DNA from: a virus
Virus record (IMG/VR): IMGVR_UViG_3300044846_000719
Coordinates: 32,657 to 96,656 of that record
Length of the DNA stretch: 64,000 nucleotides
Strand: one strand, 5' to 3'
This document shows, in pieces, positions 39,101 to 64,000 of this stretch. A program made the position numbers and the translations under genes. How positions within the stretch are numbered: the stretch's first letter is position 1; each line of letters starts with the position of its first letter. The notes below the pieces were generated by a model. It had not been told where the DNA came from and made no database searches. It saw nothing but the letters and a program-made list of their open reading frames with translations.

Positions 39101-40778
39101 CAGTCTTACTAGAAATAGTATCAGGAATATCATATTCCCTCATATTATTAATAAGACCTTTTGCAATGATAGATCTATTACCCTCTCTTGTACCCCTTAA
39201 GATTTCATACCCAATAATATTACGGATATAGTTAGTCGCTAAATCTTTTGGGAATTCAATATTAGAGAACTCTACACCAAGTAAAGTAAGAGTATTGTTT
39301 GCTGTATTATAATTAGAGATGATAATATCATCCGGCATTTTGTGGTGCCTAATATTCTTAGCACATAAATTAGCCCATATATCTGGTTTATTATCAGGAT
39401 ACTTTTCTGTAGACTCCCAATATGCCATCTCACCTCTTGCTATAATTACACCACCGTCATCTAATGTTCCGGTTGCTGGTACTCTTGTAGCAGTATTGTT
39501 TACTTGCCAGTTTTGTTCTGAACCAAAGTTTACGATGTGATCAGGACCAGCGTTATTATTAAGCTCTCCGGGTTTTGGTGAACGTCCTGGTATATGGTAG
39601 CTAGATGACTTGTCACCTGTGTTATATATCCATCGTATAAAAAAGCTATATACTTCATCTCTTAAAAATGTTGGTTTGTTTCCGCCATCATAATAATATG
39701 TGGCCGGGTATTCTACACCAACCCATCTAGTAACAATATTATTAGCTAATGGTTGGTAATTAAAATCTTCATATGTGGTTGGACCAATCCTAATCAAATA
39801 ATCATTAACATTATACATTGCCACAGATTTCTCATATGACGGTGTACGTAATGGTATTTGCTCTAATGGTACGGTAACCAATGTAGGATCTACTGCATCT
39901 AATGAAATAGTAGTTGACTGCGTAGAGTAGTAACCAATCTTTCTAGCAACGGCTTGTTGATTAACAAAACCAATTAATACTAATTCAAATTCATCATAGT
40001 CTGCATCAAGGCCGGTAAATGTAATATCTAAAGAACCATTAGCATTATCATGTGTCCACAATGCTTGTACATTAGAGATTGATAAATAGTCTGTTACTCT
40101 TATTCCGTTAACAGAGTAAGCCATTGTAGCCTGATAAGAACCATTTAACAATGTACCTAGACCATAACCCTTAGTAACTTGAATACAAGGTGTATTAGCA
40201 TATGCAGCTAGTCTTAGTTTGTCGCAATCAATTACACCGGTAGATACTTCATCTTTACATGGGCCTGGAAGAATATCTGTTGTAATGTAAGGAACACCAT
40301 CCCAGTTACCTACAGGATAAGGCCATAAATCTTCATTACCAATATTCATTGTTCTGGTAGGATTAAATCCATCATCCCAATATAAGTTCCATTTACAATC
40401 TGAACTATATTTAGATACACCAGTTATAGGGTAATCTTTTGAAAAGTTAAAACATTTGTTTTGTGGATCATTATAGATAGTATAATAATCACAAGTATTC
40501 TCATCAAATAAACCAATCTCTGAACTAAAAATATTAGTGGAGTAAATAGCCCATTTACCATTACCAATACTAACTGTACCAATAATAGTATATGGTGCTC
40601 TAGCACATAATACGTTACTAGGCTCATTACCTAATACACCAACATCTCCAGATGGAGAATTGTTAACGGCATTCCTTGCATGTGTCCAGTAACCCTCACC
40701 TATAAAAGTATCACTTACGTCTTTAAGTAGACCTTTATTATAGAGTTCGGTGTGTATTAAACTAGTTTTACCATCCAT
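36132..40778 (-). CDS. Large tail protein, crAss muzzle-like
   Basis: 1548 residues. The ATG overlaps the upstream endonuclease stop as TAATG. The N-terminus (DGKTSLIHTELYNKGLLKDV, then GEGYWTHARNAVNN) matches what I recall of the large conserved crAss-like tail protein that forms the distal tail muzzle. Repeated beta strands with aromatic residues (GKWAIYST, SEIGLFDE) suggest a propeller-like fold. An exceptional Gly/Ala-rich hydrophobic stretch at about 653-733 could form membrane-active helices, for instance to aid DNA and protein passage during ejection. The basic C-terminus ends LKKLVSGSSKFFLKLSNNK. It is placed after the connector genes and before the cargo genes, as expected for a tail gene. 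Confidence 0.65.
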   Translation of the reverse strand: MDGKTSLIHTELYNKGLLKDVSDTFIGEGYWTHARNAVNNSPSGDVGVLGNEPSNVLCARAPYTIIGTVSIGNGKWAIYSTNIFSSEIGLFDENTCDYYTIYNDPQNKCFNFSKDYPITGVSKYSSDCKWNLYWDDGFNPTRTMNIGNEDLWPYPVGNWDGVPYITTDILPGPCKDEVSTGVIDCDKLRLAAYANTPCIQVTKGYGLGTLLNGSYQATMAYSVNGIRVTDYLSISNVQALWTHDNANGSLDITFTGLDADYDEFELVLIGFVNQQAVARKIGYYSTQSTTISLDAVDPTLVTVPLEQIPLRTPSYEKSVAMYNVNDYLIRIGPTTYEDFNYQPLANNIVTRWVGVEYPATYYYDGGNKPTFLRDEVYSFFIRWIYNTGDKSSSYHIPGRSPKPGELNNNAGPDHIVNFGSEQNWQVNNTATRVPATGTLDDGGVIIARGEMAYWESTEKYPDNKPDIWANLCAKNIRHHKMPDDIIISNYNTANNTLTLLGVEFSNIEFPKDLATNYIRNIIGYEILRGTREGNRSIIAKGLINNMREYDIPDTISSKTGLYVNYPYNPLSPDPFLGVDVVTGKQTRGGAYRDAVPNDVRLFSSYRKDMFSFHSPETTFRNPFLSATELKVYGELWGNVEGNFRPVDNHPKDKFITDFAAVIANFAGIAIGSAATISAVFGGNLVEAAAKVAVITGNFAAFGGITGTSAGPIAGAATAIVGAAVGYVILFSYYYIESTQNVIEGIEAASGKRQFAYQYISRGFYNNFISSPIGNRRREIIKSLYVDPVIQDYDTTYRINNLFRASTVTLTTNSGIADPSVIDNTLFTIGDIARGDHGRTADNDIWKEPTKLQNSVTSAHYAALKIKNDNQYGQLDAIRQIPVGCIDLWTLQYTQKATSNIIFGGDMYVNRYTEKSTFFYFSQWMQDLPDNTEWDYRLYNMLPYPRYWMDTSKYNAADLFEGIFGGTQALPNDFHHLDRRIISGAFSVRFAYMYLFNSGIRDFYVESELNLAYRDYGDDPGKRHYDFNTYTDYEEMFRTPYIKDTNYQKYDYALSISKHFTNFVSWGNIQPRIYNPDNVGCFTTYPTRVIYSLQQQYELRKDNWRQFLANNYYDFDSRVTSMRSVGKTGAVIMLEHGAPMLFQGVETLDLNGGTKLSIGDGQLFNAQPLQNLSNADSEFEYGSCQSKLSVINTPAGLFYMSQNQGKIFSYGQGLQDISKSGMKWWFSQYSPYALLVDFPNIDTTMLDNTIIGIGCQTTYDNINEIVFFCKRDFKLKSEYIGRVKYLVGLGNKFEFLDFPGYQITLGDPIYFENASWTVSYDPKAKAFISFHDWQPNLVMSSKTYYMTVKDDGIWKHNLVCDSFCNYYGVNYPFEVEYVQNQGQTVTTTRSIEYILECYKYSKNCLDYNHLLNENFDRAVIYNTEQISGDLILNLSPLNNPYAINNYPIINTSSIDILFSKVEQKYRFNEFWDITNDRGQTSANTTPMWVTEANGYIRNINATYVNYNKGATQRKKFRHYINKVLLKKLVSGSSKFFLKLSNNKLLASFR

Positions 40779-41266
40779 TATCTTAACTTATTTAAATATT
40801 CTACAGCTTTGATAAGCAGTTCTGGATTATCTTTAAATTTTCCTAATCCAGCATTACAATTATCACATAAAAATCCTCTTACTTTTAATGTAGTATGACA
40901 ATGATCTAAACACAAAGATTTTTTAAAACCATCTGGTGTCTTATTACATATAGCACATTTATTATCTTGTTCTTCTAAAAGATTATGATATTGATCTTTT
41001 GTAATATCTAAACCAAGTTTTTTATAACATGAAAACTTTACAGATAATTTAAATTTTTCAGGATTATTTTTTCTATATACTCTTGATCTTTCTTTTGCAT
41101 TTAAAATAGCAGTTTCAGATAGTTTATATTTTTTCTTAAATTCTTTTAAACAAGAAATACATCTACTATCTTTATTATACAAATATCCTTTTGCAGTATG
41201 AAAAAAATCTAAAGTTTTCTTTTCATTACATAAAGTACATGTTTTATATAAAATTTCTAAACTCAT
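40778..41266 (-). CDS. Endonuclease VII-type HNH homing endonuclease
   Basis: 162 residues from the ATG at 41266, which overlaps the preceding stop as ATGA. A TTG two codons upstream is less likely. The N-terminus has a zinc-finger pair (CTLC and CISC). The C-terminal half has the recombination endonuclease VII signature: CAICNK, then LCLDHCHTT, then GFLCDNCNAGLG, and a helix LLIKAVEYL. The C-x2-C pairs bind structural zinc, and D-H-x-H is the catalytic core. In this setting, squeezed between two tail genes, it is more likely a selfish homing gene than a packaging resolvase. Its own stop overlaps the next ATG, so the insertion is translationally integrated. Confidence 0.85.
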   Translation of the reverse strand: MSLEILYKTCTLCNEKKTLDFFHTAKGYLYNKDSRCISCLKEFKKKYKLSETAILNAKERSRVYRKNNPEKFKLSVKFSCYKKLGLDITKDQYHNLLEEQDNKCAICNKTPDGFKKSLCLDHCHTTLKVRGFLCDNCNAGLGKFKDNPELLIKAVEYLNKLR

Positions 41267-42126
41267 CTCCAACTGTTATGATTATAGCTTTTAAATTGAT
41301 CGTAATATTTGCCATATTGTGCTTTGCGGTTCATCTCCCACATCTTATACATCTCTGCAAAGTTTGGAGTGTTAACTAAAGACAATGCATTATTACGAGC
41401 AGCTCTTAGTCTCTGTTCAATAAGATTAAGCTTTTGTACTACATCCTCACCATTCATGTAAAGGTTCTCAAGCAATCTCTGTTTAAGAGCATACTCATAG
41501 TATTCATTTACATATGGATTATCCAACACCATTAAGTTACCCTCCTCATCTTCCATAGTACCTTGATAGTTAACATATAACTTACCGTGCTCTAGGTTTA
41601 AATAAATATAACCATTCTTAAGTTGTCCTCTGTATGGAGATTGCCAAGTAAGGTTAGGACAATCACATGAAATAGTTTTAGAGTTATTATCTAAAGAGAT
41701 AACTGTATTAATCTCATACGTCCTAGTCTCAAACTGTGTAGTCTGAATTACTTGTAGTAAATCACCACACTGAGTTAAACAGGTACTCTCTGGAGTACAA
41801 GGATCTAGAGGACCGGGAATAAATGGTACAACTACATCTTCTCTATGGGTACCTGACATTGCTGGCTGTGTAACTGTATAAGAACCACACAACATTGCAT
41901 AGTTCAATACAAAGAAATCATCCGGTAGTCTTACTTTACTATTGACAATATCTAATACAACCTCTTTGGTCATATTAATTCTAAGTCCTAAATCATAGTT
42001 AACCCGTTGCACAACTTTAATAAGTTGCTGGGGCTCTATCATATTCTCTAAAGCATACATAGAGAAATCAACACTTACATCTTCAAGCAATTGATTAAAT
42101 GTCCGGTATCTAAGTTCTGTAAGCAT
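41263..42126 (-). CDS. Tail connector/ring-type structural protein
   Basis: 287 residues. The ATG overlaps the previous stop as TAATG. A helical N-terminus (RTFNQLLEDVSVDFSMYALE and following) precedes KVRLPDDFFVLNYAML, a pattern of strands followed by an L-P-D-D/Y-F loop that recurs in adaptor proteins of podovirus tails (P22 gp4-like). The C-terminal helices are rich in Glu, Arg and Asn (QRLRAARNNALSL). It follows a second protein of similar type and precedes the muzzle-like gene, which fits a ring around the portal-tail channel. It is assigned by order and pattern, not by an alignment. Confidence 0.5.
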   Translation of the reverse strand: MLTELRYRTFNQLLEDVSVDFSMYALENMIEPQQLIKVVQRVNYDLGLRINMTKEVVLDIVNSKVRLPDDFFVLNYAMLCGSYTVTQPAMSGTHREDVVVPFIPGPLDPCTPESTCLTQCGDLLQVIQTTQFETRTYEINTVISLDNNSKTISCDCPNLTWQSPYRGQLKNGYIYLNLEHGKLYVNYQGTMEDEEGNLMVLDNPYVNEYYEYALKQRLLENLYMNGEDVVQKLNLIEQRLRAARNNALSLVNTPNFAEMYKMWEMNRKAQYGKYYDQFKSYNHNSWR

Positions 42127-42782
42127 TATCTGTTAGGATTAATATTGTCATCACTAAGATCTGTTGGAATAGAAAGTCTAGAACCAAGATCTTTAATTAC
42201 CATAGCCTCAATTTCAGCTAATAAAAATTCAGGTACATTGATACCCAAATCTTGTTTCTTAGTACACTCATCTCCCTGAGTTGCATCTTCAGTAAAGATT
42301 GCCTCTACTTTGATAGCATCCCAATCTAGATTAGGCATATACAAGTATCCGTTTAAGTACCAGAAGTATTTAAATTTGTTATACTTAAAACCGGTTGTCT
42401 TACTCATAGATGTAAACTGTCCAGGAGTAGTTGCATATAACTCCTCAGATACATCAATAGAGCTCACTGTACGGATCAAAGGACCCCAGTAACCCTCTAG
42501 CATAACCGGTAACTTTTCTTTTGTTCTTTTAATCATGCATCCGGATTTAATTCCGGCACAACATGCTTCAATTCTATCTACCTCAATTAACTCTAAACAA
42601 TCTAGAGTTCTCCATATAGAATTAAACTTCATTAATTTATTCTGTGAGTCTTGTCTCCTCATCAGAAGTTGAGAGTATTTTACAACTACACTGTAAACAT
42701 ACCTATCAGTTAGGAAAGCATCTTGCCTTACCCCTTTTACCTGATTCTTTACCCGTGATATTACGGTGCCAATAGTTACCAT
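42126..42782 (-). CDS. Tail connector/tubular-type structural protein
   Basis: 218 residues, ATG start six bases after the HU-like gene. It has helical ends and a central beta region with several Cys (RIEACCAGIKSGC) and a FYWY-type aromatic patch (KFKYFWYLNGYLYMP). The C-terminal helix holds FLLAEIEAMVIKDLGSRL. The arrangement of N-terminal helices, central strands and a C-terminal helix, with the next gene of the same kind, fits the stacked ring proteins of crAss-like tails. It is tightly coupled to the downstream gene by TAATG. The exact ring identity cannot be told from sequence alone. Confidence 0.5.
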   Translation of the reverse strand: MVTIGTVISRVKNQVKGVRQDAFLTDRYVYSVVVKYSQLLMRRQDSQNKLMKFNSIWRTLDCLELIEVDRIEACCAGIKSGCMIKRTKEKLPVMLEGYWGPLIRTVSSIDVSEELYATTPGQFTSMSKTTGFKYNKFKYFWYLNGYLYMPNLDWDAIKVEAIFTEDATQGDECTKKQDLGINVPEFLLAEIEAMVIKDLGSRLSIPTDLSDDNINPNR

Positions 42783-45129: not shown

Positions 45130-46521
45130 TTAATAAGAAACCTCAGTAAGTGATATAGCCGCAACTATCCGCATGGTAACTGAACCACCCCCTGCAAACG
45201 TAGGGCCAGTAAAGGTAATAGCCATTTCTTGAGATGCACCAGCAGTATAAGCGATGTTAGCAAGTGTTAAACTACCTGCAATGGTTTCAATGGCGTGAGT
45301 ACCTGCTGAGGTATGAGCAGAAACTGTAGTAGTGCCTGCACGTTTAGCAACTGCAAGTAAATCTGTAGATACTTTAGTATCTCCACCAGTAACACCTGTA
45401 GCCGTTCCTGTAATATTAGTAACTACAGCCACCCAACGTACTTGTACATTCCACATACGACTTGTACCAGTAGGAATAATTAAATTTGTAACACCTGTGC
45501 CATCCAAAGAAAGCACAGCAGTACCCCCTGTAGTTAATATCGCTTCTTGACGAGCAGTCAATAAAGATTGTTGTGTTGCAATTTGTCCCGTAAATGTACC
45601 ACTTGCTAAAGCACTTTGTGCGTATAAATAAGATGTAGAACCAAGACCGATAGCAGTACCACTTTCGGGTGATGTTACAGATGTAGACCTACCTAAAGAA
45701 AATCCATAACTACCACTTATTGTATTATTATTACCAACAGCAACCGAACCAACTCCTGAAACGTTATTAAAAGAACCAAAAGCACAGGAAAAAACATTAC
45801 TTGCCGTATTTTGTCTACCTATTGCTACCGCACTGTCAGCACTTGCCGAATTGCTATTACCTATAGCCACACTTGCTCCTATCCCTGAAGCAATATTGCT
45901 TAAACCAATAGCAACAGCCCTTGTACTACTGGCAGTATTACCCTGCCCACCGCTTACACTATGTTGCCCACTACTCGTATTAGTTTGTCCACCTACTACT
46001 GTAGCGTGTGTGTTAGTTGAAGCAGTATTAGATTGACCTCCTGACACTGTGCTGTAAGAGGAGGAGGCTGTGTTACTACGCCCTCCACTGATTGTACCGC
46101 CTTCTCCACTTGAATTATTTAAATATCCAAAAGCAATTGAAAATTGATTAGAAGCGTTTGAATCTGACCCTCCTGCAATTGAACTTGTACCACTTGCTAC
46201 ATTCCCTTGCCCACCAACAACAGTAGAACTACTACCGCTACTTGTATTGTATGCTCCACCCGATAATACTGAAAACGTCCCACTTGCAACAGAACTCGCT
46301 CCACTTCTAAAAGATTGCAAGTCTACTGCATTTTGACCCCTTGCGTTTCCACCCGTAGACGTATCATCGGGAATATCAGCAATCAAAGCACCTGTACCGT
46401 TGGGCACAATAGCCAAGTTTGAATTTGTAGTATCTGTTTGGATAACAGTTGTTGTCTGAGTGGCCACATTGACATCACTCGTAAGTCTTAATCTTCCAAA
46501 TAATTTATTAAACGCTCCCAT
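45130..46521 (-). CDS. Trimeric fibre with head-repeat region, paralogue A
   Basis: 463 residues, ATG start. Residues about 30-80 form a module (NLAIVPNGTGALIADIPD, GGNARGQNAVDLQ, SVASG) shared with the next upstream gene. Residues about 80-300 are short repeats of the type SGGQSNTASG and AIGxxNxAS, as in YadA/Hep_Hag beta-roll heads that form trimers. The last 110 residues are a separate beta-rich domain (TSRMWNVQVRWVA to TMRIVAAISLTEVSY). This domain is also shared in outline with the paralogue but differs in its middle, a likely receptor-binding tip. Base composition is noticeably less AT-rich than in neighbouring genes. The role is inferred as host recognition. Confidence 0.7.
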   Translation of the reverse strand: MGAFNKLFGRLRLTSDVNVATQTTTVIQTDTTNSNLAIVPNGTGALIADIPDDTSTGGNARGQNAVDLQSFRSGASSVASGTFSVLSGGAYNTSSGSSSTVVGGQGNVASGTSSIAGGSDSNASNQFSIAFGYLNNSSGEGGTISGGRSNTASSSYSTVSGGQSNTASTNTHATVVGGQTNTSSGQHSVSGGQGNTASSTRAVAIGLSNIASGIGASVAIGNSNSASADSAVAIGRQNTASNVFSCAFGSFNNVSGVGSVAVGNNNTISGSYGFSLGRSTSVTSPESGTAIGLGSTSYLYAQSALASGTFTGQIATQQSLLTARQEAILTTGGTAVLSLDGTGVTNLIIPTGTSRMWNVQVRWVAVVTNITGTATGVTGGDTKVSTDLLAVAKRAGTTTVSAHTSAGTHAIETIAGSLTLANIAYTAGASQEMAITFTGPTFAGGGSVTMRIVAAISLTEVSY

Positions 46522-46533
46522 AATTTTTATTTA

Positions 46534-48072
46534 TTAAAATGCTACCTCTACTAATGAAACCTTAGCAACTACTCTCATAGTTACAGAACCTCCCCCTGCA
46601 AATGTTGGCCCAGTAAATGTAAGTGCCAATTCTTGTGATGCACCTGCGGTGTATGTCATTAAGCAAGTATCCATAATAGCATTATCAGAGGCTTCTGAAT
46701 CACTTAACATATTACCCATAGTAGATGTGCCTGCAAGTCTTTTAAATCCAAAACTGGATTCTCCATACACGTAATCACCAACTGTAATACCTGTAGCAGT
46801 TCCCGTGATAGTTGTTACTGTTGCAACCCACTCAACCTTAACTTTCCACATACGGTGAGTGCCACTTGGAACAATTAAATTGGTTACTCCTGTACCATCT
46901 AAAGATAAAACTGTAGTTGCTGCTGAATTGAGTGTGTCATATCGCCAAGCATTTACAGTTGAATTTTGATTTGTCCTACTCGCACCAGTAGCACCTCCTT
47001 GAACAAATTGATTATATAAGTACCCAGCACCATTTAGACCTACAACAACAGAACAATTAGCACCAGCCGTAATGCTATGACCACTTCCAATAGCGACAGA
47101 TTGAGAAGCGGCTACTAAATTATCAATACCACCTATCGCAGCAGCAAACGAAGCCGATACTGTGCTATTTCCTGATAGACCCTTAGCCCCTTCAGCCGTA
47201 CAATTCATTCCATTTCCTAATGCTATAGTACCAGTTGCTGTTGCACGTGTTGAAGCATTTCCATAAGCAAAAGAATTACCACCACTTGCAATAACACCTG
47301 TACCACCAGCAACACTAAGCCCACCACTGGCGGTATTACTACTACCTCCTATAACCGTAGCGTGTGCTGAAGATGCAGTATTACTCTGCCCCCCCACAAC
47401 CGTAGCGTGTGTTCCTGTAGATGCTGTGTTTGATTGTCCGCCTGAGATGGTTGAATAGGAACTATTTGCAGAATTGCTTCTACCTCCTGAAATTGTCGCA
47501 CTACCAACAGAACCCCCTACGGCTATACTATTGAATAATCCACCACCTATAAAAGAGTGTCCACTACTTCCGATAGTATTTTGCTGACCACCAACAACAA
47601 CTTGGTAACCATCTAAACCAGATACACTGTTTAATGTACCTCCACCAACAAAACCACCTGTAGAACTTGCAAAGTTTTGACCACCACCAACAACAACACT
47701 AATAACTCCGCTTGCAACTTGTGTTGCTCCTGCTCTATTAGTTTGCAAATCAACAGCGTAAGCACCCCTCGCTTGACCACCTGTAGCAGTTCCATCGGGA
47801 ATACTTGCAACTAAAGCACCTGTACCGTTAGGGGCGATTACTAAGTTAGCATTGGTAGTAGTTGATTGGATTACAGAAGACGTCTGTGTAGTTACAGAAG
47901 AATCTGAGGCAATACCTACTCTAAGTGTAGATAAATACAATGGAGAACCTGTACCGGTACCATCCTGTACTTGTCTTAATGTAGCATCTAATATAGTACC
48001 TACGGGTAACTGTAAATTATTTGTACCTCCCCCTCCAGCACCTAGAGAAAAGAATTTAGCATATCTAGCCAT
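46534..48072 (-). CDS. Trimeric fibre with head-repeat region, paralogue B
   Basis: 512 residues, ATG start. A distinct N-terminus (ARYAKFFSLGAGGGG to TLRVGIASDSS) leads into the module NLVIAPNGTGALVASIPD, GGQARGAYAVDLQ, VASG, which it shares with paralogue A. Head-type repeats (ISGGRSNSANS, VVGGQSNTASS, AIGGIDNLVA) run to about residue 370. The tip domain (SGTHRMWKVKVEWVA to VTMRVVAKVSLVEVAF) matches A at both ends and differs between (VYGESSFGFKRLAGTS). The tandem paralogues with conserved frames and a variable tip core suggest duplication and divergence for host range, and could recombine with each other. Confidence 0.7.
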   Translation of the reverse strand: MARYAKFFSLGAGGGGTNNLQLPVGTILDATLRQVQDGTGTGSPLYLSTLRVGIASDSSVTTQTSSVIQSTTTNANLVIAPNGTGALVASIPDGTATGGQARGAYAVDLQTNRAGATQVASGVISVVVGGGQNFASSTGGFVGGGTLNSVSGLDGYQVVVGGQQNTIGSSGHSFIGGGLFNSIAVGGSVGSATISGGRSNSANSSYSTISGGQSNTASTGTHATVVGGQSNTASSAHATVIGGSSNTASGGLSVAGGTGVIASGGNSFAYGNASTRATATGTIALGNGMNCTAEGAKGLSGNSTVSASFAAAIGGIDNLVAASQSVAIGSGHSITAGANCSVVVGLNGAGYLYNQFVQGGATGASRTNQNSTVNAWRYDTLNSAATTVLSLDGTGVTNLIVPSGTHRMWKVKVEWVATVTTITGTATGITVGDYVYGESSFGFKRLAGTSTMGNMLSDSEASDNAIMDTCLMTYTAGASQELALTFTGPTFAGGGSVTMRVVAKVSLVEVAF

Positions 48073-51482: not shown

Positions 51483-54400
51483 TTATGCTAATAATATTTT
51501 ATAGTCTACACCATTAATCTTAACATTCCAAACCTTAGTAGAAGTATTTGCTTCTGTTGTTACAGTACCTGCATTTGTTGTTGTACTACCTACTACAAAT
51601 TGATTGTCTGCGGTTGCCCTTGCATTTCTTCCAAGCAAAACACATCCCGAATTTCCGTCTGTTCTACATCCCGCACCTAAAGCACTATTAGAACTACCCG
51701 TACTAAAATCTAAAGACGATTCACCAACTGCGGTATTATGAGTGCCAATTATATTAAATCTTAATGCGGCAGAACCCACTGCGACGTTATTAGCACCCGT
51801 AGTGTTTGATTGTAGAGACCTTTCGCCTATTGCCGTATTATATGATGCCGATGTATTAGAAAACAATGCAGCATTTCCAAGAGCAGTATTATTAATGCCA
51901 TTCACATTATTTGACATTGATATATATCCGATACTTGTATTACTTGTACCCGTCGTATTTATTGGTAATGCGCCTACTCCAATCGCAGAATTATTACTAC
52001 CCGTTGTATTCGCACCTAACGCACTTGAGCCTAATGCAATATTGTTAGCACCCGTAGTATTTACATCTAACGCTTGAAATCCTACTGCGGTGTTGTCGCT
52101 ACCCGTAGAAAGCCTCAACGCTTGATAACCGATTGCAGTAATGCCTGTTCCGCTTGTGTTAGTTGTGGCTGCTTCGTACCCTACTGCGGTGTTGTTGTCA
52201 GCGGTGTTGTTTAATAATGCACTTGTACCTAATCCTATATTTTGAATACCTACTGAATTCATACGTAATGCGTTTATGCCTAAAGCAACATTACTCGTAC
52301 CCGTTGTGTTGAATCTTAACGCTTGATAACCATGTGCAGTATTACTACTTCCCGTTGTGTTTAATTGCATTGATTGATAACCAATACTACTATTAAATGA
52401 ACCCGTTGTATTATTGTTCATTGATTGAGTGCCAACTGAAACATTGGTATTCCCCGTTGTATTATTAGGCAAAGCAGAATGTCCAATCGCAACATTATTA
52501 ATCCCTGTAGAGTTATTACTTAATGCTCCATATCCTAAACCAACATTATAACTACCCGTGGTATTTTGCCGTAAGGCATCAAAACCTATTGCAACATTTT
52601 CAATTCCAATAGTATTAAATGTTAAAGAACGTAACCCTACTGCGGTATTCTCGCTACCCGTGGTATTTGAAACTAACGCAGAATTACCTACCGCAGTGTT
52701 GTTAGCACCCGTTGAAAGCCTCAACGCTTGATAACCTATAGCAGTTACACCCGTTCCGCTTGTGTTACTAAACGCTGCTTGATAACCTACTGCGGTGTTA
52801 TTGGATGCGGTGTTGGCTGATAAAGATTCATAACCTATAGCAACATTGTTTGTACCTGTTGTATTAAATTGTAAAGCATAACTACCAATACCCACATTGT
52901 TAAAACCTGTAGTATTTCTTCCTAATGTAAAAAATCCAAATGCTGAGTTAAAATACCCCGAAGTATTAGCACTTAAAGAACTAAAACCAGTAGAAGTGTT
53001 ATTATACCCATCTACGTTAAATCTTAAAGAACCTGCACCAACCGCAGTATTTTGTACACCCGTTGTAGTATTTTGTAAAGAATTAGTACCAAATGCTGAA
53101 TTGTAATTTCCTGTTGTATTACTACTTAATGCTGAAGAACCTACTGCTGTAATTTGTATTGCTGTAGTATTACTTAGCCCTGCTTGATGCCCTACTGCTG
53201 TATTGTTTGAGGCGGTGTTGTTATTTAATGCCTGATAACCTATTGCTGTGTTATTGCCTCCTGTGCTATTACTCAACATGGAATCTCTACCAATAGAAAT
53301 GTTATTGTTGCCCGACAAATTAGAAGCCAAAGCATTTACGCCAATACCTATATTACTTTCACCAATAGTATTTGTAGAAAGGGAAAAAGCACCAACGGCA
53401 ACGTTACTATTTGCTGTTGTATTAGATTGCAATGCATTATGACCTAAAGCGGTTAAAAACGTTCCTGTTGTATTGTTATACGCTGCTTGAACACCAACTG
53501 CGACATTATTAGAGGCGGTATTATTGCGTAAGGCCTGAGAACCTATAGCAACATTATTTGTTGCTGTGGTATTAAATAATAAAGTTTCGTGTCCTAAAGA
53601 TGTATTATCAGTTCCAGTAGTGTTTCTTAACAACGCTTGATTACCTACGGCTGTATTATTTGAACCTGTTGTATTCAAGTACAAAGATTGATTACCTATT
53701 GCAGTTAAATTAGTTGCTGTTGAATTTGTATAACCTGCCTGATATCCTACGGCTGTATTATAGTTTCCATTATTTAATCGTAATGATTCAGTACCTATAG
53801 CAGTATTAGATAGTCCTGTACTATTGGTTAATAAAGCACTTAAACCTACAGATACGTTATATGTACCTGTAGTATTGTTTCGTGATGCATTATATCCTAA
53901 AGCCGTATTATTATTTGCGTTATTAGTAAATAAAGAACCATAACCTACAGATGTATTATTTGCACCTACAATATTAGTGTTTGATGATTGATAACCAATA
54001 GCAGTATTACCACCAGCAGTAGTATTACTCAAAAGTGCATCCACACCTACAGCCACGTTTTGTGTTCCGCTTGTGTTTGCCCTAAGTGAACGATAACCCA
54101 AAGCCGTATTGTTGCTGTTGGTGTTGTTCTCCATAGCTAAATAACCCAAAGCAGTGTTGCCGGTACCAGTTACATTTAATGTTAAAGCATTTTTACCTAC
54201 TGCTGTATTACCACCACCTATTGTAACAGATGTCAAAGCATCATTACCAAAAGCAGTATTATTATTGGCAGTAGTATTACTATCTAATGCGTTAGTACCA
54301 AATGCTGTGTTTGTAGCAACGTTACCGGCTCCAGTATTTGTAACTGAAGTAGTGGATATCTGTAATGCAGAACTTGTATTAGCACCATCCTTTACAAATT

Positions 54401-54728
54401 GTAATGTACCGGATAATGGATTGTCTACTTTTAATAATCCAACCGGAGGTGTATATGTATTAGAGATAGTAAGAAGATCATTTAGATCATCATATACTAT
54501 AGCAATACCTGTACCGGCAACTAAAAATGCAGCAACAGTATCCATAATAATCTCTGGATTAATACTAGAGCCTATTACGTATGCTAAGTTCTCTACAGTG
54601 ATTTTACGGGTTACTCCTAAAGAACCGTTAGGGGCTATCTCTCCTACTGAAACAATAGGGATTACATCATACTGTCCATCTACACCTGCTGGAAGTAATG
54701 CATTTAATTGGGTTATTGAACTGCTCAT
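51483..54728 (-). CDS. Giant repeat fibre with about 53 NTAxG head repeats
   Basis: 1081 residues. The ATG overlaps the previous stop as ATGA. Residues 1-135 are a non-repetitive anchor (SITQLNALLPAGVDGQYDV). About 53 copies of a repeat with consensus NTAxGxxAL...N(T/S)TG follow, averaging about 16-18 residues. This is the beta-roll head repeat of trimeric YadA-like adhesins and phage fibres. The C-terminus (FVVGSTTTNAGTV, then TKVWNVKINGVDYKILLA) is a tip that closes such fibres. Shorter repeats marked NNTASNNTAVG appear at intervals, giving a super-repeat. The region from about 51700 to 52800 is richer in G+C than the rest of the gene. Probably a long head or tail fibre for surface binding. 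Confidence 0.75.
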   Translation of the reverse strand: MSSSITQLNALLPAGVDGQYDVIPIVSVGEIAPNGSLGVTRKITVENLAYVIGSSINPEIIMDTVAAFLVAGTGIAIVYDDLNDLLTISNTYTPPVGLLKVDNPLSGTLQFVKDGANTSSALQISTTSVTNTGAGNVATNTAFGTNALDSNTTANNNTAFGNDALTSVTIGGGNTAVGKNALTLNVTGTGNTALGYLAMENNTNSNNTALGYRSLRANTSGTQNVAVGVDALLSNTTAGGNTAIGYQSSNTNIVGANNTSVGYGSLFTNNANNNTALGYNASRNNTTGTYNVSVGLSALLTNSTGLSNTAIGTESLRLNNGNYNTAVGYQAGYTNSTATNLTAIGNQSLYLNTTGSNNTAVGNQALLRNTTGTDNTSLGHETLLFNTTATNNVAIGSQALRNNTASNNVAVGVQAAYNNTTGTFLTALGHNALQSNTTANSNVAVGAFSLSTNTIGESNIGIGVNALASNLSGNNNISIGRDSMLSNSTGGNNTAIGYQALNNNTASNNTAVGHQAGLSNTTAIQITAVGSSALSSNTTGNYNSAFGTNSLQNTTTGVQNTAVGAGSLRFNVDGYNNTSTGFSSLSANTSGYFNSAFGFFTLGRNTTGFNNVGIGSYALQFNTTGTNNVAIGYESLSANTASNNTAVGYQAAFSNTSGTGVTAIGYQALRLSTGANNTAVGNSALVSNTTGSENTAVGLRSLTFNTIGIENVAIGFDALRQNTTGSYNVGLGYGALSNNSTGINNVAIGHSALPNNTTGNTNVSVGTQSMNNNTTGSFNSSIGYQSMQLNTTGSSNTAHGYQALRFNTTGTSNVALGINALRMNSVGIQNIGLGTSALLNNTADNNTAVGYEAATTNTSGTGITAIGYQALRLSTGSDNTAVGFQALDVNTTGANNIALGSSALGANTTGSNNSAIGVGALPINTTGTSNTSIGYISMSNNVNGINNTALGNAALFSNTSASYNTAIGERSLQSNTTGANNVAVGSAALRFNIIGTHNTAVGESSLDFSTGSSNSALGAGCRTDGNSGCVLLGRNARATADNQFVVGSTTTNAGTVTTEANTSTKVWNVKINGVDYKILLA
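52108..52209. repeat. First copy of a 102-bp direct repeat in the giant fibre gene
   Basis: This segment is similar, base for base at roughly four fifths of positions, to 52714-52815. Both start gaaagcctcaacgcttgata and end gcggtgttg. The offset is 606 bp, exactly 202 codons, so the frame is kept. The similarity at DNA level is well above that of most repeats in the gene and marks a fairly recent internal duplication. Confidence 0.7.
52714..52815. repeat. Second copy of the 102-bp direct repeat in the giant fibre gene
   Basis: Partner of 52108-52209, in the same orientation and 606 bp away. Together they bracket about 11-12 head repeats that may have been duplicated as a block, or could be lost by recombination between the copies. 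Confidence 0.7.
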
Positions 54729-54979
54729 ATCAAGATTCTATTACCATCCTCTAGTAAGAGGTAGTTGTCAGGAATAATTACTGAATTACCTAAAAGGTTA
54801 GGTTGTAATAGGGCATTCATATCACACAACTCTTTGTTGTAGATATCAATCTCCCAGTTTTCATCACAGCATGTTGCAATGCCGTATTTCATCCTCTTAA
54901 ATAATGTGTAGATAGCCTCAGCGTATTTTACGTTGATTGATTCTGATCCACAGGTGTAACAACTGCTACATGCTTCCAT
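54725..54979 (-). CDS. Small Cys-rich hypothetical protein
   Basis: 84 residues, ATG start. The N-terminus has CSSC and YTCG. A helix follows (YAEAIYTLFKRMKYGIATCC), then an acidic region with one more Cys (NKELCDMNALL). The start lies 52 bases inside the preceding zinc-ribbon gene in another frame, and the end overlaps the giant fibre start as ATGA. Both frames in the overlap show sensible Cys patterns or polar coding, so both are taken as real. Similar small Cys-containing proteins lie near head/tail genes of crAss-like phages. The role is unknown. Confidence 0.55.
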   Translation of the reverse strand: MEACSSCYTCGSESINVKYAEAIYTLFKRMKYGIATCCDENWEIDIYNKELCDMNALLQPNLLGNSVIIPDNYLLLEDGNRILI

Positions 54980-58737: not shown

Positions 58738-59748
58738 TTATTTCCAGTGTTGTTCTACTTTGTTAATGATTGCATCAGCTACATCTTGATTAAGAGGGTT
58801 CTTTAAGAACTCTACAATATCACTAGATGTCTTACCTAACATAGTACTGCTTGATAAGTGATAGATAAATCCATCAGACTTAGTAACAATATACTTATAG
58901 GTACCGGCATCTCTTACAATAGCCCGCAATTTTAAAGTGGTCAAATCATTCTCAGAAACATCTAAGAATCTTTCTGCACACTTTTTCTTATCTCTATCTA
59001 CAGTTTCTCCGTTGATATATTTATCCATGTTATCATAGATAATATCATTAGGTGTACTTTTCTTATACTGTGCACTATCAATATCAATAATTTTAGCAAC
59101 ATAAAATAATTTAGTTTGATTCTTATCAAACATTTTCTGTAATTCAGAAAGGGCTTTGTTCCTAATTTTCTTAGTCTCTGTTTTAATAGTAACAGTCTCT
59201 TCCATTTTATCTAAATAAAATTTAGGAGCTTTTGACATTTTTCTAGCTGCATCATAAGATTTAGCAATGATACTAAAACCACCGGCTTCAATAGCATATA
59301 ACTTAATAAGATCATAAGGATCTACAGAAGGATCTAAATAAAGTGGATCATTACCCACTCTAATTACAATCTTACTCCAGAACTCATCATTATCTGGTCT
59401 AAGTAATTTAATTTTATTCCAGAATTCTGCATCATCAGGACTAACAACATTAGCTGCTAAATCTTTTTCTAACTGAGATACAACCTTCCGGATCTCTTTA
59501 ATCTTAGCCTCTCTATCTACATCAGGTAAAAACTTTACATCTGGGGCAAATTCATTAAGCCCGGTAAGGTAACGTTTAATACCATTAATTTCTAGACAAG
59601 CTAGCTGCTCTTCATGGAATACACCATCAAAGAGAGAAAGACCATAAGACTCTAATCCCATGTTACTAACATTAGAATCAAAGTAAGATTTAATACTCAA
59701 TGTACCCTTTTTGTTTTGGGGATACATGTCTACAATTGTTACACTCAT
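58738..59748 (-). CDS. Hypothetical head-region protein
   Basis: 336 residues from the ATG at 59748. An upstream TTG would add 13 Asn-rich residues and is unlikely. The N-terminal region (SVTIVDMYPQNKKGTLSIKS, then GVFHEEQLACLEINGIKRYL) is beta-like. The centre is charged coiled coil (REAKIKEIRKVVSQLEKDL). Around residue 180-230 a basic helix KKIRNKALSELQKMF occurs. The C-terminus has a compact domain (TYKYIVTKSDGFIYHLSSST). There are no catalytic motifs. It lies between the fibre and head genes, upstream of the capsid gene. Scaffold, head-fibre base or regulator are all possible. Confidence 0.5.
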   Translation of the reverse strand: MSVTIVDMYPQNKKGTLSIKSYFDSNVSNMGLESYGLSLFDGVFHEEQLACLEINGIKRYLTGLNEFAPDVKFLPDVDREAKIKEIRKVVSQLEKDLAANVVSPDDAEFWNKIKLLRPDNDEFWSKIVIRVGNDPLYLDPSVDPYDLIKLYAIEAGGFSIIAKSYDAARKMSKAPKFYLDKMEETVTIKTETKKIRNKALSELQKMFDKNQTKLFYVAKIIDIDSAQYKKSTPNDIIYDNMDKYINGETVDRDKKKCAERFLDVSENDLTTLKLRAIVRDAGTYKYIVTKSDGFIYHLSSSTMLGKTSSDIVEFLKNPLNQDVADAIINKVEQHWK

Positions 59749-59784
59749 TTGGTTTATATTATTATTTGGTTGGTTTTTATTATT

Positions 59785-59792
59785 CAAATATA
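59785..59792 (-). promoter_or_regulatory. Candidate promoter -7 box before the 336-residue gene
   Basis: The minus strand reads TATATTTG, an exact TAnnTTTG, in the gap after the 653-residue fibre gene. It leaves a leader of about 30 bases containing AATAATATAAAC. No clear -33 TTG is seen. Confidence 0.4.
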
Positions 59793-59802
59793 CTTATTAT
59801 TA

Positions 59803-61764
59803 TTACATAGTACTATGTGTTACTTTTCTCCAAGCTACACCATCATAAAAACAAGGTTGTAATAAGGTAGTATTGTAAACTTCCAATCCATTTGCTGGAG
59901 ATGCAATAGCGTTTATCTCTGCTGTGGTCATGCGTGGCATTAGGAATCCACGAGTAGTAGAAGTTATAGTAACTTGGGCAGACGCTGGAGGTTGTGCTGT
60001 ATCACCGAAATGAACATAACCATTCAAAGACGTTAAAGAATTGGATGAATTATTATTATTGATAAAAACATTAAACCCAAAACTCGTACCATAACCCGCA
60101 AGAGTCACACTACCACCAGAATTATCTATATTATTTCCAATTACTTGCATTGAAGTACCTAGAAAAATACGCCCATCATCTCTAACAGAAAAATTTGATG
60201 TAAAGGCACTATTCTGCACCAAGAAAGAGGTAGTGGCGGAGGTTGAGCCACTGCCTTGAACTGTTAAACGGGCTGTACCAGTAGTATTTCCTATTAATAC
60301 GTTTCCATTTGCTTTAAATACAACTCTTGAGTCTGTAATAGATGCATTTGTTGCTATAGCATCTCCATTAAGACATAAGTATAAATCGGATCTTCCATAA
60401 GAACCTAAATTTCGTGCTAAAAATAATACCTTTCTTTCAAGCAAACTTGCGGTACTTATATAAAAACCATTGTCTGTGTTATTAGCAGCAGATTGTATAG
60501 TAAACCCACTACCTTTTAGGTAGTTGTCTCCTGTTCCTGTTCCTTGTAAAGTTCCTGAAAGAGATAATGATGTTCCTGATATACTACCATTAACGGTTAA
60601 TGTTGACGTTGGACTACTTGTACCAATACCTACGTTACCTCCGTTAAAAATTACGTTTCCTGCTGTTGTCTCAATAGCTCTTACAGATACCCAATCTGTT
60701 ACAGTTGGGTTAATGTAAAGACCTCTAAGTAAAGTAGCATTAGATAAAGCAGTCTCATTTGTAGATGTAATATTTAATAAGTTTATTGTGCTTAAGTTAA
60801 TATTTCCACGAAATGGTCTTGTTATAGTTACTGTGTCTGCATTATTATTTGAAGATGGAAAAGAAAAAATATGTCCACTATCACTTGAATTATAAGAAGT
60901 TGCACCCTGAGATCCTCCATTAAGTGAAAGTGCTCCTCCTCCTGTTCCACGTGCAATACTAAATTTTTGGTAACCACTTCCGTCTGTAATACGGAACATA
61001 ATATTAGGATCTACTCCCAATTGGATAGTACCACCTGCTGTAGGAACTACAGATACATTACTTCCAAATGCAGAAGTTCTATCATCAAGAATAGTTAAAG
61101 CAGCCGTACCCAAACTATTCTGCACCAACAAAGCTGTAGTAGCTGAAGTAGAACCTTCTCCAACGATTTGTAATTTAGCATTTGAACCAGTAGTTCCAAT
61201 ACTCACTTTACCATCGGGTGCTACTTGTAAACGTGTAGTTTGACCACCGCCATTCCAAGTAACTAATCGCAAACCACCAACTCTGTCTATACCTGTTCCA
61301 CCATAATAACCTAATACTGCAGAACAAACTTGAGAAAAAGGACTATATGTAGAATTGAAATAACCGCCAAAAGATAAACGCCCAATTTCTGCACCAATCG
61401 CCAAATTTACACTACCATTTTTGCGGTATTGGTTAATTTGACCAATAATAGCAGATGTATCTTGTTCAACTAAAATAACAGAACTTATACCTGGATTATT
61501 ATTATAAATATTTAAAGGGACTATTGGAGTAACCGTACCTACACCTAACCTCTTGTTTACATTATCCCAGAATAATCCAGCATCTCCTCCTAGTGCATTG
61601 TTATCATTAAATTGTACATAGCCATTAAGCCCGGCAGGTTGAGCTGAGTTATTGTTTATGTACTCTACAATAGTGTTAAGATGACCAAACTTTGCTACTT
61701 CAAAGTCTTGTGAATTCCTGATAAAAATATCCGGTGATTTTGGTATAAATCTTTCTAATGCCAT
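59803..61764 (-). CDS. Modular fibre with shared docking motif and GSTSATT repeats
   Basis: 653 residues, ATG start. It opens with the docking motif (ERFIPKSPDIFI ... AKFGHLNTIVEYINN) shared with two genes upstream. Three copies of a module (G-x-G-STSATT-xx-L-VQNS ... D) occur near 205, 395 and 510, separated by beta-rich spacers including VGIGTSSPTSTLTVNG. The C-terminus (TSTTRGFLMPRMTTAEINAI, then VYNTTLLQPCFYDGVAW) is the widespread terminal module of Bacteroidota phage and host-surface fibres. It is probably a virion-attached fibre with host-binding ability. Confidence 0.7.
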   Translation of the reverse strand: MALERFIPKSPDIFIRNSQDFEVAKFGHLNTIVEYINNNSAQPAGLNGYVQFNDNNALGGDAGLFWDNVNKRLGVGTVTPIVPLNIYNNNPGISSVILVEQDTSAIIGQINQYRKNGSVNLAIGAEIGRLSFGGYFNSTYSPFSQVCSAVLGYYGGTGIDRVGGLRLVTWNGGGQTTRLQVAPDGKVSIGTTGSNAKLQIVGEGSTSATTALLVQNSLGTAALTILDDRTSAFGSNVSVVPTAGGTIQLGVDPNIMFRITDGSGYQKFSIARGTGGGALSLNGGSQGATSYNSSDSGHIFSFPSSNNNADTVTITRPFRGNINLSTINLLNITSTNETALSNATLLRGLYINPTVTDWVSVRAIETTAGNVIFNGGNVGIGTSSPTSTLTVNGSISGTSLSLSGTLQGTGTGDNYLKGSGFTIQSAANNTDNGFYISTASLLERKVLFLARNLGSYGRSDLYLCLNGDAIATNASITDSRVVFKANGNVLIGNTTGTARLTVQGSGSTSATTSFLVQNSAFTSNFSVRDDGRIFLGTSMQVIGNNIDNSGGSVTLAGYGTSFGFNVFINNNNSSNSLTSLNGYVHFGDTAQPPASAQVTITSTTRGFLMPRMTTAEINAIASPANGLEVYNTTLLQPCFYDGVAWRKVTHSTM

Positions 61765-61779
61765 TATCTTATTATTTGT

Positions 61780-61824
61780 ACCCGGTAAGAGTTACGAGCT
61801 CTATTTGCAGGCGTACCACCGGGT
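61780..61824 (-). ncRNA. Structured leader element upstream of the fibre gene
   Basis: ACCCGGT (61780-61786) pairs perfectly with ACCGGGT (61818-61824). Inside, AGAG (61788-61791) pairs with CTCT (61799-61802). The region is markedly less AT-rich than other gaps. It lies 15 bases before the ATG of the 653-residue fibre gene, with only ACAAATAATAAGATA between on the minus strand, so it is not followed by a T run. A translation-control structure or a remnant of an RNA gene is possible. Confidence 0.35.
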
Positions 61825-61832
61825 TAGTTAAA

Positions 61833-62207
61833 TTATTCAGCAGATTCTACTGGAGCTACATAAGGAGTAACATCCACTTCTTCTACATTACCAGGATAAA
61901 TTGCTTCCAACTGAGCCTGTACAGTATCAACCAAAAGAGCTTCAGCAGGTTTAGTGCTGTAGTCTTCTACTGATAAAGAAAGACCATACATTGCTGGATT
62001 AAAATCAGCAACACCAGATACGGCAGCTTTACCTGATTCAAATGCTTCTACACTAGTGTATACAGCGTTAACGATTTGAGCATTCATGCTACCTTCTTTG
62101 GTAGTGAATACTTGAGCCAATCCTTCAGTAATAACTACTAAAGAACCAGAAGATAAAACAGCACCAGTGTTTAAGTTAACTGGGGCATTAATTTTTAGTG
62201 CTTTCAT
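61833..62207 (-). CDS. Small structural-type protein between fibre genes
   Basis: 124 residues, ATG start. A beta-rich N-terminus (KALKINAPVNLNTGAVLSSG, then LVVITEGLAQVFTTKEG) is followed by a helix around YTSVEAFESGKAA and a C-terminal part with an acidic tail (VEEVDVTPYVAPVESAE). There are no catalytic residues and no signal peptide. The pattern resembles small fibre-base or head-surface proteins. Encoded between two proteins with the same docking motif, it may be part of the same fibre complex. Family not recognised. Confidence 0.55.
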   Translation of the reverse strand: MKALKINAPVNLNTGAVLSSGSLVVITEGLAQVFTTKEGSMNAQIVNAVYTSVEAFESGKAAVSGVADFNPAMYGLSLSVEDYSTKPAEALLVDTVQAQLEAIYPGNVEEVDVTPYVAPVESAE

Positions 62208-62241
62208 GTTGTAAATATATTTATTTTTTATTTGTTATTAA

Positions 62242-63411
62242 TTATAAAGTTACCCATGCGCTTCCGTTATAGAAACATGGACGGTTTAAATCTGTATCGT
62301 ATACTTGAAGACCTGCGGCTGGAGTTGCAATTAAATTCTTTTGAGCTGTGGTAACACGAGCATTAAGAAAACCTTTAGTAGTAGTTCTTATTTCTATTGC
62401 TGCGGAAGCATCTGGATTATCAAATCCTGGAGTACCTCCAACTAGTAAAGAATTACCATCTCTTACAACTGTTCTACCACCTGTTAAAATAGTACCTACC
62501 CCACTTACTGTTAAACCATTGTATATATTAGCATTACCATCTAGTCTTAAATTGGTTGTTATATAAGCATTTCCACTTACCAAGAATGTATACCCAAAAG
62601 TATTAGTTCCACCTAAACAAACTTGCCCAGCATCATTTACGTTTAAAGCAGCAGTACCACTACTATTCTGTACTAGAAGAGAGGTAGTAGCTGAGGTTGA
62701 GCCGCTACCACGAACTTGAAGTGTAGCAGAAGGAATATAATCTAAAGCACTTCCAATTCCTACGCCCTCTTTAGTTATACGCATAGGGTTAAAATTAGAC
62801 CCTGTGTTGTTGTACAAAATAAATCTTACGTCACCTTCAACACCTGTTGCAGACGTTGATAATGCCACAGAAGTAATAGATGCTGAACTACTATATGAAG
62901 TTCCGTTATATCCAAAATATCCAACGTTTCCTATAAGGTCACCAACATTTACAACTACAGGAGTATCGTAAGTTCCCCTGCTTTTCATAAATTCTAATTT
63001 CGCAGCACTTGTCGATGCTTGGTTTCTGTAAATTCCAATAGAGGCATCACCTTGTCCAATAACACGTATCTTTTGACCAAAACCTGTAGCATTTACATAA
63101 TTTCCAACTGATAAAATACCTGTTAGATTGGTATTTCCTATAATATCTAATGGGGTAAGGGGAGCAGTTGTTCCAATACCTACCCCAATAGTACTAATTG
63201 ATATAGCACTATTAACACCTGTAGAATCACTAATATATCTAGCAGTTGCTGTAATTGGTCCTGAACCAGCTAATTGTAAACTATCTACTACTACATAAGC
63301 ATTTAAATAATCTACAATATTATTTAAATGACCAAATTTAGCTAAGGTCATTTCCGGATCACTAGTTATATAGGGATCCGGAGATAAGGGTATAAATTTA
63401 TTTAGTGGCAT
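62242..63411 (-). CDS. Modular fibre with shared docking motif
   Basis: 389 residues, ATG start. The N-terminus (LNKFIPLSPDPYI ... LAKFGHLNNIVDYLNAY) is the docking motif. VGIGTTAPLTPLDIIG marks a beta spacer, and one GSGSTSATTSLLVQNS module occurs near residue 240. The C-terminus (TTTKGFLNARVTTAQKNLIA, then VYDTDLNRPCFYNGSAW) is the same terminal module as in the 653-residue protein but much diverged, so the two share both ends and differ in length and middle. A virion fibre that recognises the host surface is inferred. Confidence 0.7.
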   Translation of the reverse strand: MPLNKFIPLSPDPYITSDPEMTLAKFGHLNNIVDYLNAYVVVDSLQLAGSGPITATARYISDSTGVNSAISISTIGVGIGTTAPLTPLDIIGNTNLTGILSVGNYVNATGFGQKIRVIGQGDASIGIYRNQASTSAAKLEFMKSRGTYDTPVVVNVGDLIGNVGYFGYNGTSYSSSASITSVALSTSATGVEGDVRFILYNNTGSNFNPMRITKEGVGIGSALDYIPSATLQVRGSGSTSATTSLLVQNSSGTAALNVNDAGQVCLGGTNTFGYTFLVSGNAYITTNLRLDGNANIYNGLTVSGVGTILTGGRTVVRDGNSLLVGGTPGFDNPDASAAIEIRTTTKGFLNARVTTAQKNLIATPAAGLQVYDTDLNRPCFYNGSAWVTL

Positions 63412-63418
63412 GATTGTA

Positions 63419-63844
63419 TTAATCTAATACTAAGAAGCTAATCTTAAAAATATTATTAAATGCATTACTTGGGTGAACATTATAAATCCGGATTACAAAG
63501 CTACCATTACTGATAGAATCTAATGTAAATACTGGAATACCTGCTCCTACATGTACTGGAGTTAATAATACTTTAGATGCTGCAGTAACCTTACTGTTAT
63601 TTACAGTGAAAGCTACATTAGATCCAGCAGCAGTAGTTGCTGATACAGTAGTAATAACACCTGCATAACTATCAATAGTTACTGCACTGCTAATTCCTAC
63701 AGTTTGTGTTACAACTGCAGTATTACCAGTTACTTTATTAACTTCATCAACAATAGCATTAATGTGACCAAATTTGGCCAATGACATGTCTGAATCATCA
63801 TTCAAAAATGGATCAGGAGATAACGGAGTAAATTTATTAATCAT
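63419..63844 (-). CDS. Short head/tail-spike protein with shared docking motif
   Basis: 141 residues, ATG start. Residues 1-38 are the docking motif (INKFTPLSPDPFL ... SLAKFGHINAIVDEVNK). The rest is a single beta-sandwich-like domain (ISSAVTIDSYAGVITT, AFTVNNSKVTAASKVLLTPV, FVIRIYNVHPSNAFNNIFKI) of a kind common in short phage decoration or spike proteins. It lacks the GSTSATT module and the fibre terminal module of its relatives, so it is probably a short spike or plug occupying the same attachment sites. Confidence 0.65.
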   Translation of the reverse strand: MINKFTPLSPDPFLNDDSDMSLAKFGHINAIVDEVNKVTGNTAVVTQTVGISSAVTIDSYAGVITTVSATTAAGSNVAFTVNNSKVTAASKVLLTPVHVGAGIPVFTLDSISNGSFVIRIYNVHPSNAFNNIFKISFLVLD

Positions 63845-63860
63845 TTTATTTATTATTTAT

Positions 63861-64000
63861 TTATGCCCAAGGTAAAGGAGTGTTTTCTGGAGATACAGGA
63901 GGGTTTTTCTGAGAGGCAATCTGTCCATCAATGCAAGCAGTGATAGAGATAATACCATTCTCACCCAATTCTTCTTGAATCCATCCAAGAACAATCTCTT
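63861..64000 (-). CDS. C-terminal fragment of a gene entering from the right edge
   Basis: 45 codons plus TAA; the 5' part lies beyond the window. The visible end reads WIQEELGENGIISITACIDG, followed by QIASQKNPPVSPEN and a Trp-Ala terminus. A helix is followed by a strand and a Pro-rich tail. The family is not recognised from this piece. It is encoded 17 bases upstream of the first docking-motif gene, in the same direction, so it belongs to the same late operon. Confidence 0.6.
   Translation of the reverse strand, partial: EIVLGWIQEELGENGIISITACIDGQIASQKNPPVSPENTPLPWA

Follow-up and report, generated by a model that had tools for sequence, protein, structure and literature searches.

Why should a phage carry several neighbouring genes whose products begin alike and end differently? 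The question is raised by a stretch of 64,000 nucleotides (the window), comprising bases 32,657-96,656 of the 96,656-base virus record IMGVR_UViG_3300044846_000719. At the end of this fragment stand three minus-strand genes for proteins of 141, 389 and 653 amino acids (aa), which an initial annotation described as fibres of different lengths with one N-terminal docking motif, a modular display system whose members would compete for, or co-occupy, the same virion sites. The present work lends direct support to modular display behind a constant anchor: near-identical phages were found with swapped distal parts, of which about 30 types occur. Taken as a whole, the data are probably best explained by a paralogous family of virion head fibres that would dock through an N-terminal peptide and helix and whose distal parts are exchanged at this anchor.

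One N-terminus on three proteins

The motif FxPxSPD…AKFGH(I/L)NxIV falls within residues 1-37 of each of the three proteins (NKFTPLSPDPFLNDDSDMSLAKFGHINAIVD, NKFIPLSPDPYITSDPEMTLAKFGHLNNIVD and ERFIPKSPDIFIRNSQDFEVAKFGHLNTIVE). As the initial annotation had noticed, the resemblance is real: the N-termini align with scores of 99-129, whereas the best scores from 5000 shuffles were 45-51, and the remaining open reading frames (ORFs) of the window all fall far short. Pairwise identities over the 37 anchor residues are 43-59% for amino acids and 57-68% for DNA. When the 141-aa protein served as a tblastn query against its own genome, three places only were hit, the paralogues with E values of 3.7e-11 and 1.2e-7.

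The proteins are less uniform behind the anchor. The 141-aa protein (type A; 63419-63844) consists of the anchor (residues 1-38; codons 1-37 at 63734-63844) and a beta-sandwich domain (residues 42-140) unrelated to the distal parts of the other two. The 389-aa protein (type B; 62242-63411) is made of an anchor (codons 1-38, 63298-63411), a shaft and a C-terminal tip module (62242-62424), the latter matching phrog_20787, a virion structural protein. In the 653-aa protein (type C; 59803-61764) the anchor (codons 1-38, 61651-61764) is followed by a long shaft and the same C-terminal tip (59803-59985). The sharing of this tip, pointed out in the annotation, is borne out by scores of 163-169 over 60 residues, with all other ORFs of the window below threshold. 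The shaft is shared too, the 389- and 653-aa proteins being 31% identical over 327 residues. Thus, the further claim that the distal parts differ stands for the 141-aa protein and fails for the other two.

The trio is itself a cut-off set. The contig ends 156 bases past the first anchor gene (that of the 141-aa protein), within a DUF7936 gene (p108) of which the C-terminal part remains (63864-64000, minus strand). In relatives the cassette usually opens with a long anchor protein and this small gene comes next, so the contig probably lacks one or more anchor genes that lie past its end. The sister genome G001 (125,557 bases) has five anchor genes, and its 141-aa protein is 97% identical to that of the window; orthologues in L004-L007 and L084 are 85-97% identical. 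A 124-aa gene that falls into no family (61833-62207, minus strand) lies between the 389- and 653-aa genes of the window and also trails the type-B gene in L004, L015 and L030. Across relatives, it and the 108-aa DUF7936 gene (L004:7091-7414) each accompany particular fibre genes, and they might encode fibre chaperones.

A search with a profile of the anchor retrieved 66 loci from viral contigs and a further two from GTDB genomes. Pooled with loci found earlier, they make up a set of 70 non-redundant loci and 104 anchor proteins, some truncated by contig ends. The proteins range from 51 to 902 aa and fall into about 30 distal clusters, while the position of the anchor is strictly N-terminal: in every ORF as called, the motif begins no later than about residue 22. 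One anchor gene is present in 52 loci, two in 11, three in 3, five in 3 and six in 1. As for the GTDB matches, the gene order of L085 and the fibre genes of L084 are those of phages, and the two appear to be phage contigs placed in the bins of bacterial metagenome-assembled genomes. One contig was binned with a Chitinophagaceae genome, which makes freshwater Bacteroidota candidate hosts. We also looked for the motif in unrelated non-virion proteins; among the loci found, no plainly non-virion protein carries the anchor. No match was obtained in 50,697 named phage records (by tblastn, a weak search for a 41-residue query), nor in Pfam or the PDB at the sensitivity used. As far as these searches reach, the anchor family appears to be previously undescribed.

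Natural exchange of the distal part

Comparison of relatives, which the annotation had suggested as a check for swapping, provided two clear instances. L018 and L019, derived from different metagenomes, share 99.7% DNA identity over 7,587 bases ending about 1 kb before the anchor gene, and 98.8% identity from 42 bases before its ATG to codon ~41-43. Beyond this point the two genes lack similarity up to the stop codon, after which identity returns to 99.6% over 4,180 bases. Since both distal types occur independently in other phages (L070-L072; L042, L061 and others), an assembly artefact is disfavoured. L031 and L041 are likewise 99.1% identical to codon ~35, replaced from there to the stop codon, and 96% identical afterwards.

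A further case falls inside the anchor. The first ~32 codons of gene L015_10001 match the 141-aa gene, and from codon ~25 onward the gene matches that of the 902-aa protein of L004, shaft included; by these alignments it is a recombinant with a crossover between codons ~25 and ~32, at AKFGHINAIV. Across the set, 133 gene pairs have anchor DNA that is at least 85% identical; in 39 of them identity drops below 50% just behind the anchor, by ungapped comparison of pairs that are not independent. Recombination in the anchor codons, as the natural swaps show, exchanges the display part. We propose that the anchor serves as an exchange joint, recombination in or just behind its codons swapping the whole distal part in a way that would leave docking unchanged.

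In having a near-identical N-terminus followed by a non-homologous C-terminal part exchanged between close phages, the family resembles modular tail fibres and tailspikes, and distal exchange behind a conserved N-terminus is already known for tail fibres (PMC10684548). The new elements are the anchor family itself, undescribed within the reach of these searches, the multiplication of its genes, up to six of them, immediately after the capsid gene, and the clean swaps seen in nature. As a separate observation, endonuclease-like genes stand beside capsid and terminase genes at L004:3510-4304 and L024:16498-17037, the one in L024 being judged by the look of its sequence only; if homing endonucleases adjoin the fibre cassette, they might favour exchange at that place.

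The distal parts consist of fibre shafts, of repeats resembling collagen or YadA, and of lectin-like domains. All that lies behind the helix would constitute the display, whose size ranges from a hairpin of 25 residues or a lectin-like beta domain to 850 residues of shaft and tip. These features bear on the idea that the common N-terminus is an assembly or targeting signal (e.g. for chaperone binding or as a mark of inner-capsid cargo), absent from the surface of the mature virion. Crassviruses do package cargo proteins (PMC10172136), and the anchor is without a known structure. However, shafts, collagen- or YadA-like repeats and lectin-like domains are surface parts, and exchange of distal parts suits parts that are exposed; we consider such a signal very improbable.

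Display parts are also found behind other N-termini. The tip KVKINGVDYK of a 1081-aa YadA-like repeat fibre (51483-54728) ends the 902-aa anchor protein of L004 and the 680-aa one of L015 as well. The N-terminus of the 1081-aa fibre is not the anchor, one display part thus standing behind two kinds of N-terminus. Long plus-strand ORFs antisense to the repeat gene (51742-52077 and 54154-54777) seem to be mirror ORFs that arise from the repeats rather than genes. A second common N-terminus, MARYAKFFS(L/V)GAGGGGTNNLQLPVGTI, occurs on fibre-like proteins encoded at 46537-48072 of the window and at L023:1402-3018; the neighbour of the former is a protein of 463 aa ending in a similar tip.

Docking on the head or on the tail

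Where would the anchor dock? Gene order provides a first indication. In G001, terminase, portal, a 407-aa putative scaffold, the major capsid protein and an HNH-like endonuclease precede the anchor genes. Throughout the set, the major capsid gene is the nearest upstream core gene in 52 of the 54 loci where one is visible, which places the anchor genes in the capsid module; the nearest downstream core gene is a gp33-like gene in 43 of 48 such loci, and 42 loci have the cassette flanked by both. The conserved gp33-like gene closes the cassette in the window as well (58738-59787, minus strand; weak profile match to crAss001 gp33, probability 65%, E 6e-5). In crAss001 and in Leptolyngbya phage Lbo-JY46, gp33 or its like comes immediately after the capsid gene, without such a cassette. 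The three genes of the window would then be a contig-end remnant of a paralogous fibre cassette (two to six genes in close relatives) lying between the major capsid and gp33-like genes. We rejected the identification of the 336-349-aa neighbour with the crAss001 auxiliary capsid protein gp36, the weak gp33 match being found instead; a 532-aa protein considered for the same role gave no match to gp36.

The phage itself is crassvirus-like. Its own contig stops before the capsid gene; in the sister genome L004 the capsid protein matches PF23898 Crass_capsid above cut-off (E 3.6e-32), and the window has Pfam matches above cut-off to CrAss_Ring_1 (41263-42126), CrAss_Ring_2 (42126-42782) and the muzzle family crAss_MUZ (36132-40778). 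On the strength of these protein matches, we place it among crassvirus-like phages, apparently outside the well-studied gut families. Lbo-JY46 is the closest named capsid relative (28% identity), followed by named crassviruses (22-29%) and the Cellulophaga phages phi4:1 and phi17:2. The anchor appears to reach past this group, because L022 and L083, whose capsid proteins are typical of crassviruses (that of L022 is 32% identical to cr112_1), have it a few genes further on. Elsewhere in the window, a single 4687-aa ORF (7915-21978) and ORFs of 1763 and 1986 aa nearby may encode a virion RNA polymerase or cargo proteins.

Protein size and predicted fold also invite comparison with known head proteins. 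Most of the phages have a single short anchor protein, down to 68-84 aa, close in size to gp21 (97 aa) and gp29 (122 aa) of crAss001. In the AlphaFold model of the 141-aa protein (mean pLDDT 78.6; 51-62 for the first 30 residues) an extended stretch (residues 1-25) leads into a helix (26-38) and a beta domain (42-140). A 69-aa member is modelled as an extended stretch, a helix (17-37) and a small hairpin. The beta domain of the 141-aa protein has 32 matches in BFVD at E <0.001, many of them unnamed phage proteins, mostly of unknown N-terminal type, and weak ones in the PDB (E above 0.01), including the R1 pyocin fibre knob and H-type lectins. That this domain may bind sugar is a guess in line with these weak matches; more generally, we infer that the display parts would bind sugars of the host surface.

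In crAss001, residues 1-38 of gp21 and 1-58 of gp29 dock in hexon pockets, gp21 as a trimer and gp29 as a dimer (PMC10172136). Like these, the anchor proteins would be short crassvirus proteins combining an N-terminal docking segment with an exposed C-terminal domain. They differ in that each crAss001 anchor belongs to one gene, those of gp21 and gp29 being different, whereas here several genes share an anchor, and in that the gp21 gene stands after the portal gene instead of the capsid gene. The idea that our anchor is a diverged N-terminus of gp21 or gp29 was rejected, as no profile match was seen (hhalign probability <1%). In T5 pb10, a conserved domain at the N-terminus binds the capsid and an Ig-like domain is exposed (PMC5292684). 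The likeness here, a conserved helical capsid-binding end with an exposed beta domain, is one of architecture; pb10 differs in being the only decoration protein of its kind and in having an anchor domain folded from several helices. The head fibres of Andhra, gp13, form trimers whose N-terminal domain, a beta-prism unlike the present anchor, holds them to hexamers (PMC9710869). Finally, phi29 gp8.5 is a capsid fibre whose gene adjoins the capsid gene, as do the anchor genes, although the anchors are dissimilar. An equivalence between the C-terminal domain of the 141-aa protein and gp8.5 or the gp21 tip was also rejected: the 141-aa protein and its L008 relative match phrog_18251 only, gp21 and gp8.5 belonging to phrog_14753.

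Gene order, protein size and the precedents of crAss001, T5 pb10 and Andhra together make docking on the head plausible. We infer that the proteins are present in virions and bind the capsid through their first ~38 residues, the extended FxPxSPD stretch followed by the short helix AKFGHLNxIVxxxN, most likely as oligomers in pockets of the capsid hexons.

Several observations weigh against this interpretation. Profile comparison detected no similarity of the anchor to crAss001 gp21 or gp29 or to phi29 gp8.5, and PDB searches by sequence and fold found it unlike any solved structure. Model confidence is low at the N-terminus (pLDDT 51-73 over residues 1-30 in the 141-aa and 69-aa models). The anchor gene of L048, L056, L057, L077 and L078 is not beside the capsid gene but 7-9 kb ahead of that for the terminase; in L056 and L077 it sits among fibre-like and lysis-like genes. 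In addition, part of the 653-aa protein, in its shaft, matches the tail-fibre family phrog_9942. Since crAss001 mixes head- and tail-fibre genes in one block, gene order leaves the choice between head and tail unsettled.

The last two points are also the strength of the main rival explanation, namely docking at the neck or at the hub of the tail, the proteins being tail or collar fibres of ordinary modular receptor-binding design with an exchangeable distal part. It can further invoke the match of the 902-aa relative to phrog_4636, a tail spike family, and the fact that tail fibres are the best-documented case of exchange behind a constant N-terminus (PMC10684548). Yet tail fibre and tailspike anchors bind the tail (PMC10684548), whereas the present cassette, of up to six copies per genome, stands directly behind the capsid gene; many phages have as their sole anchor protein one of 68-84 aa, undersized for a typical tail fibre; and other long fibre-like genes with different N-termini (51483-54728 and 45130-48072 in the window) could serve the tail. 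On balance, we regard docking on the tail as unlikely, and favor the head-fibre interpretation.

Subtypes, sites and implications

If the proteins are head fibres, do the paralogues share their sites? The annotation's proposal that they compete for, or co-occupy, the same ones found no support. For each of the 35 anchors examined in multi-copy phages, the closest anchor is a counterpart in another phage and never a paralogue, and subtypes tend to retain their gene position; because both findings argue against free interchange as the main mode, we do not endorse competition. One could envision instead that subtypes address different quasi-equivalent sites, such as planar and winged hexons, a possibility compatible with head-fibre docking and opposed solely to the notion of same sites. 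In crAss001, gp21 and gp29, with their unrelated N-termini, do go to distinct hexons (PMC10172136). On the other hand, vertical inheritance of paralogues gives the same pattern of relatedness, one type suffices in single-copy phages, and the recombinant L015_10001 shows that an inter-subtype anchor exists. We give separate sites slightly less than an even chance.

The boldest version of the head-fibre interpretation, which we advance tentatively and consider rather doubtful, is a multi-fibre capsid display: up to six fibres per genome, each subtype with its own quasi-equivalent hexon pocket, and the anchor codons as a recombination joint between phages.

Crassvirus head fibres are known from one structure and recognisable in few groups, and unrelated proteins may fill the role (reviewed in PMC10136315). 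The anchor provides a sequence signature for a head-fibre-like family in environmental crassvirus-like phages, in which natural swaps mark the boundary between anchor and display. A peptide of ~38 residues that fixes a cargo of 30 to 860 residues would constitute a ready-made capsid display tag. Should the multi-fibre display prove true, the capsid, besides the tail, would be a rapidly re-equipped adhesion surface.

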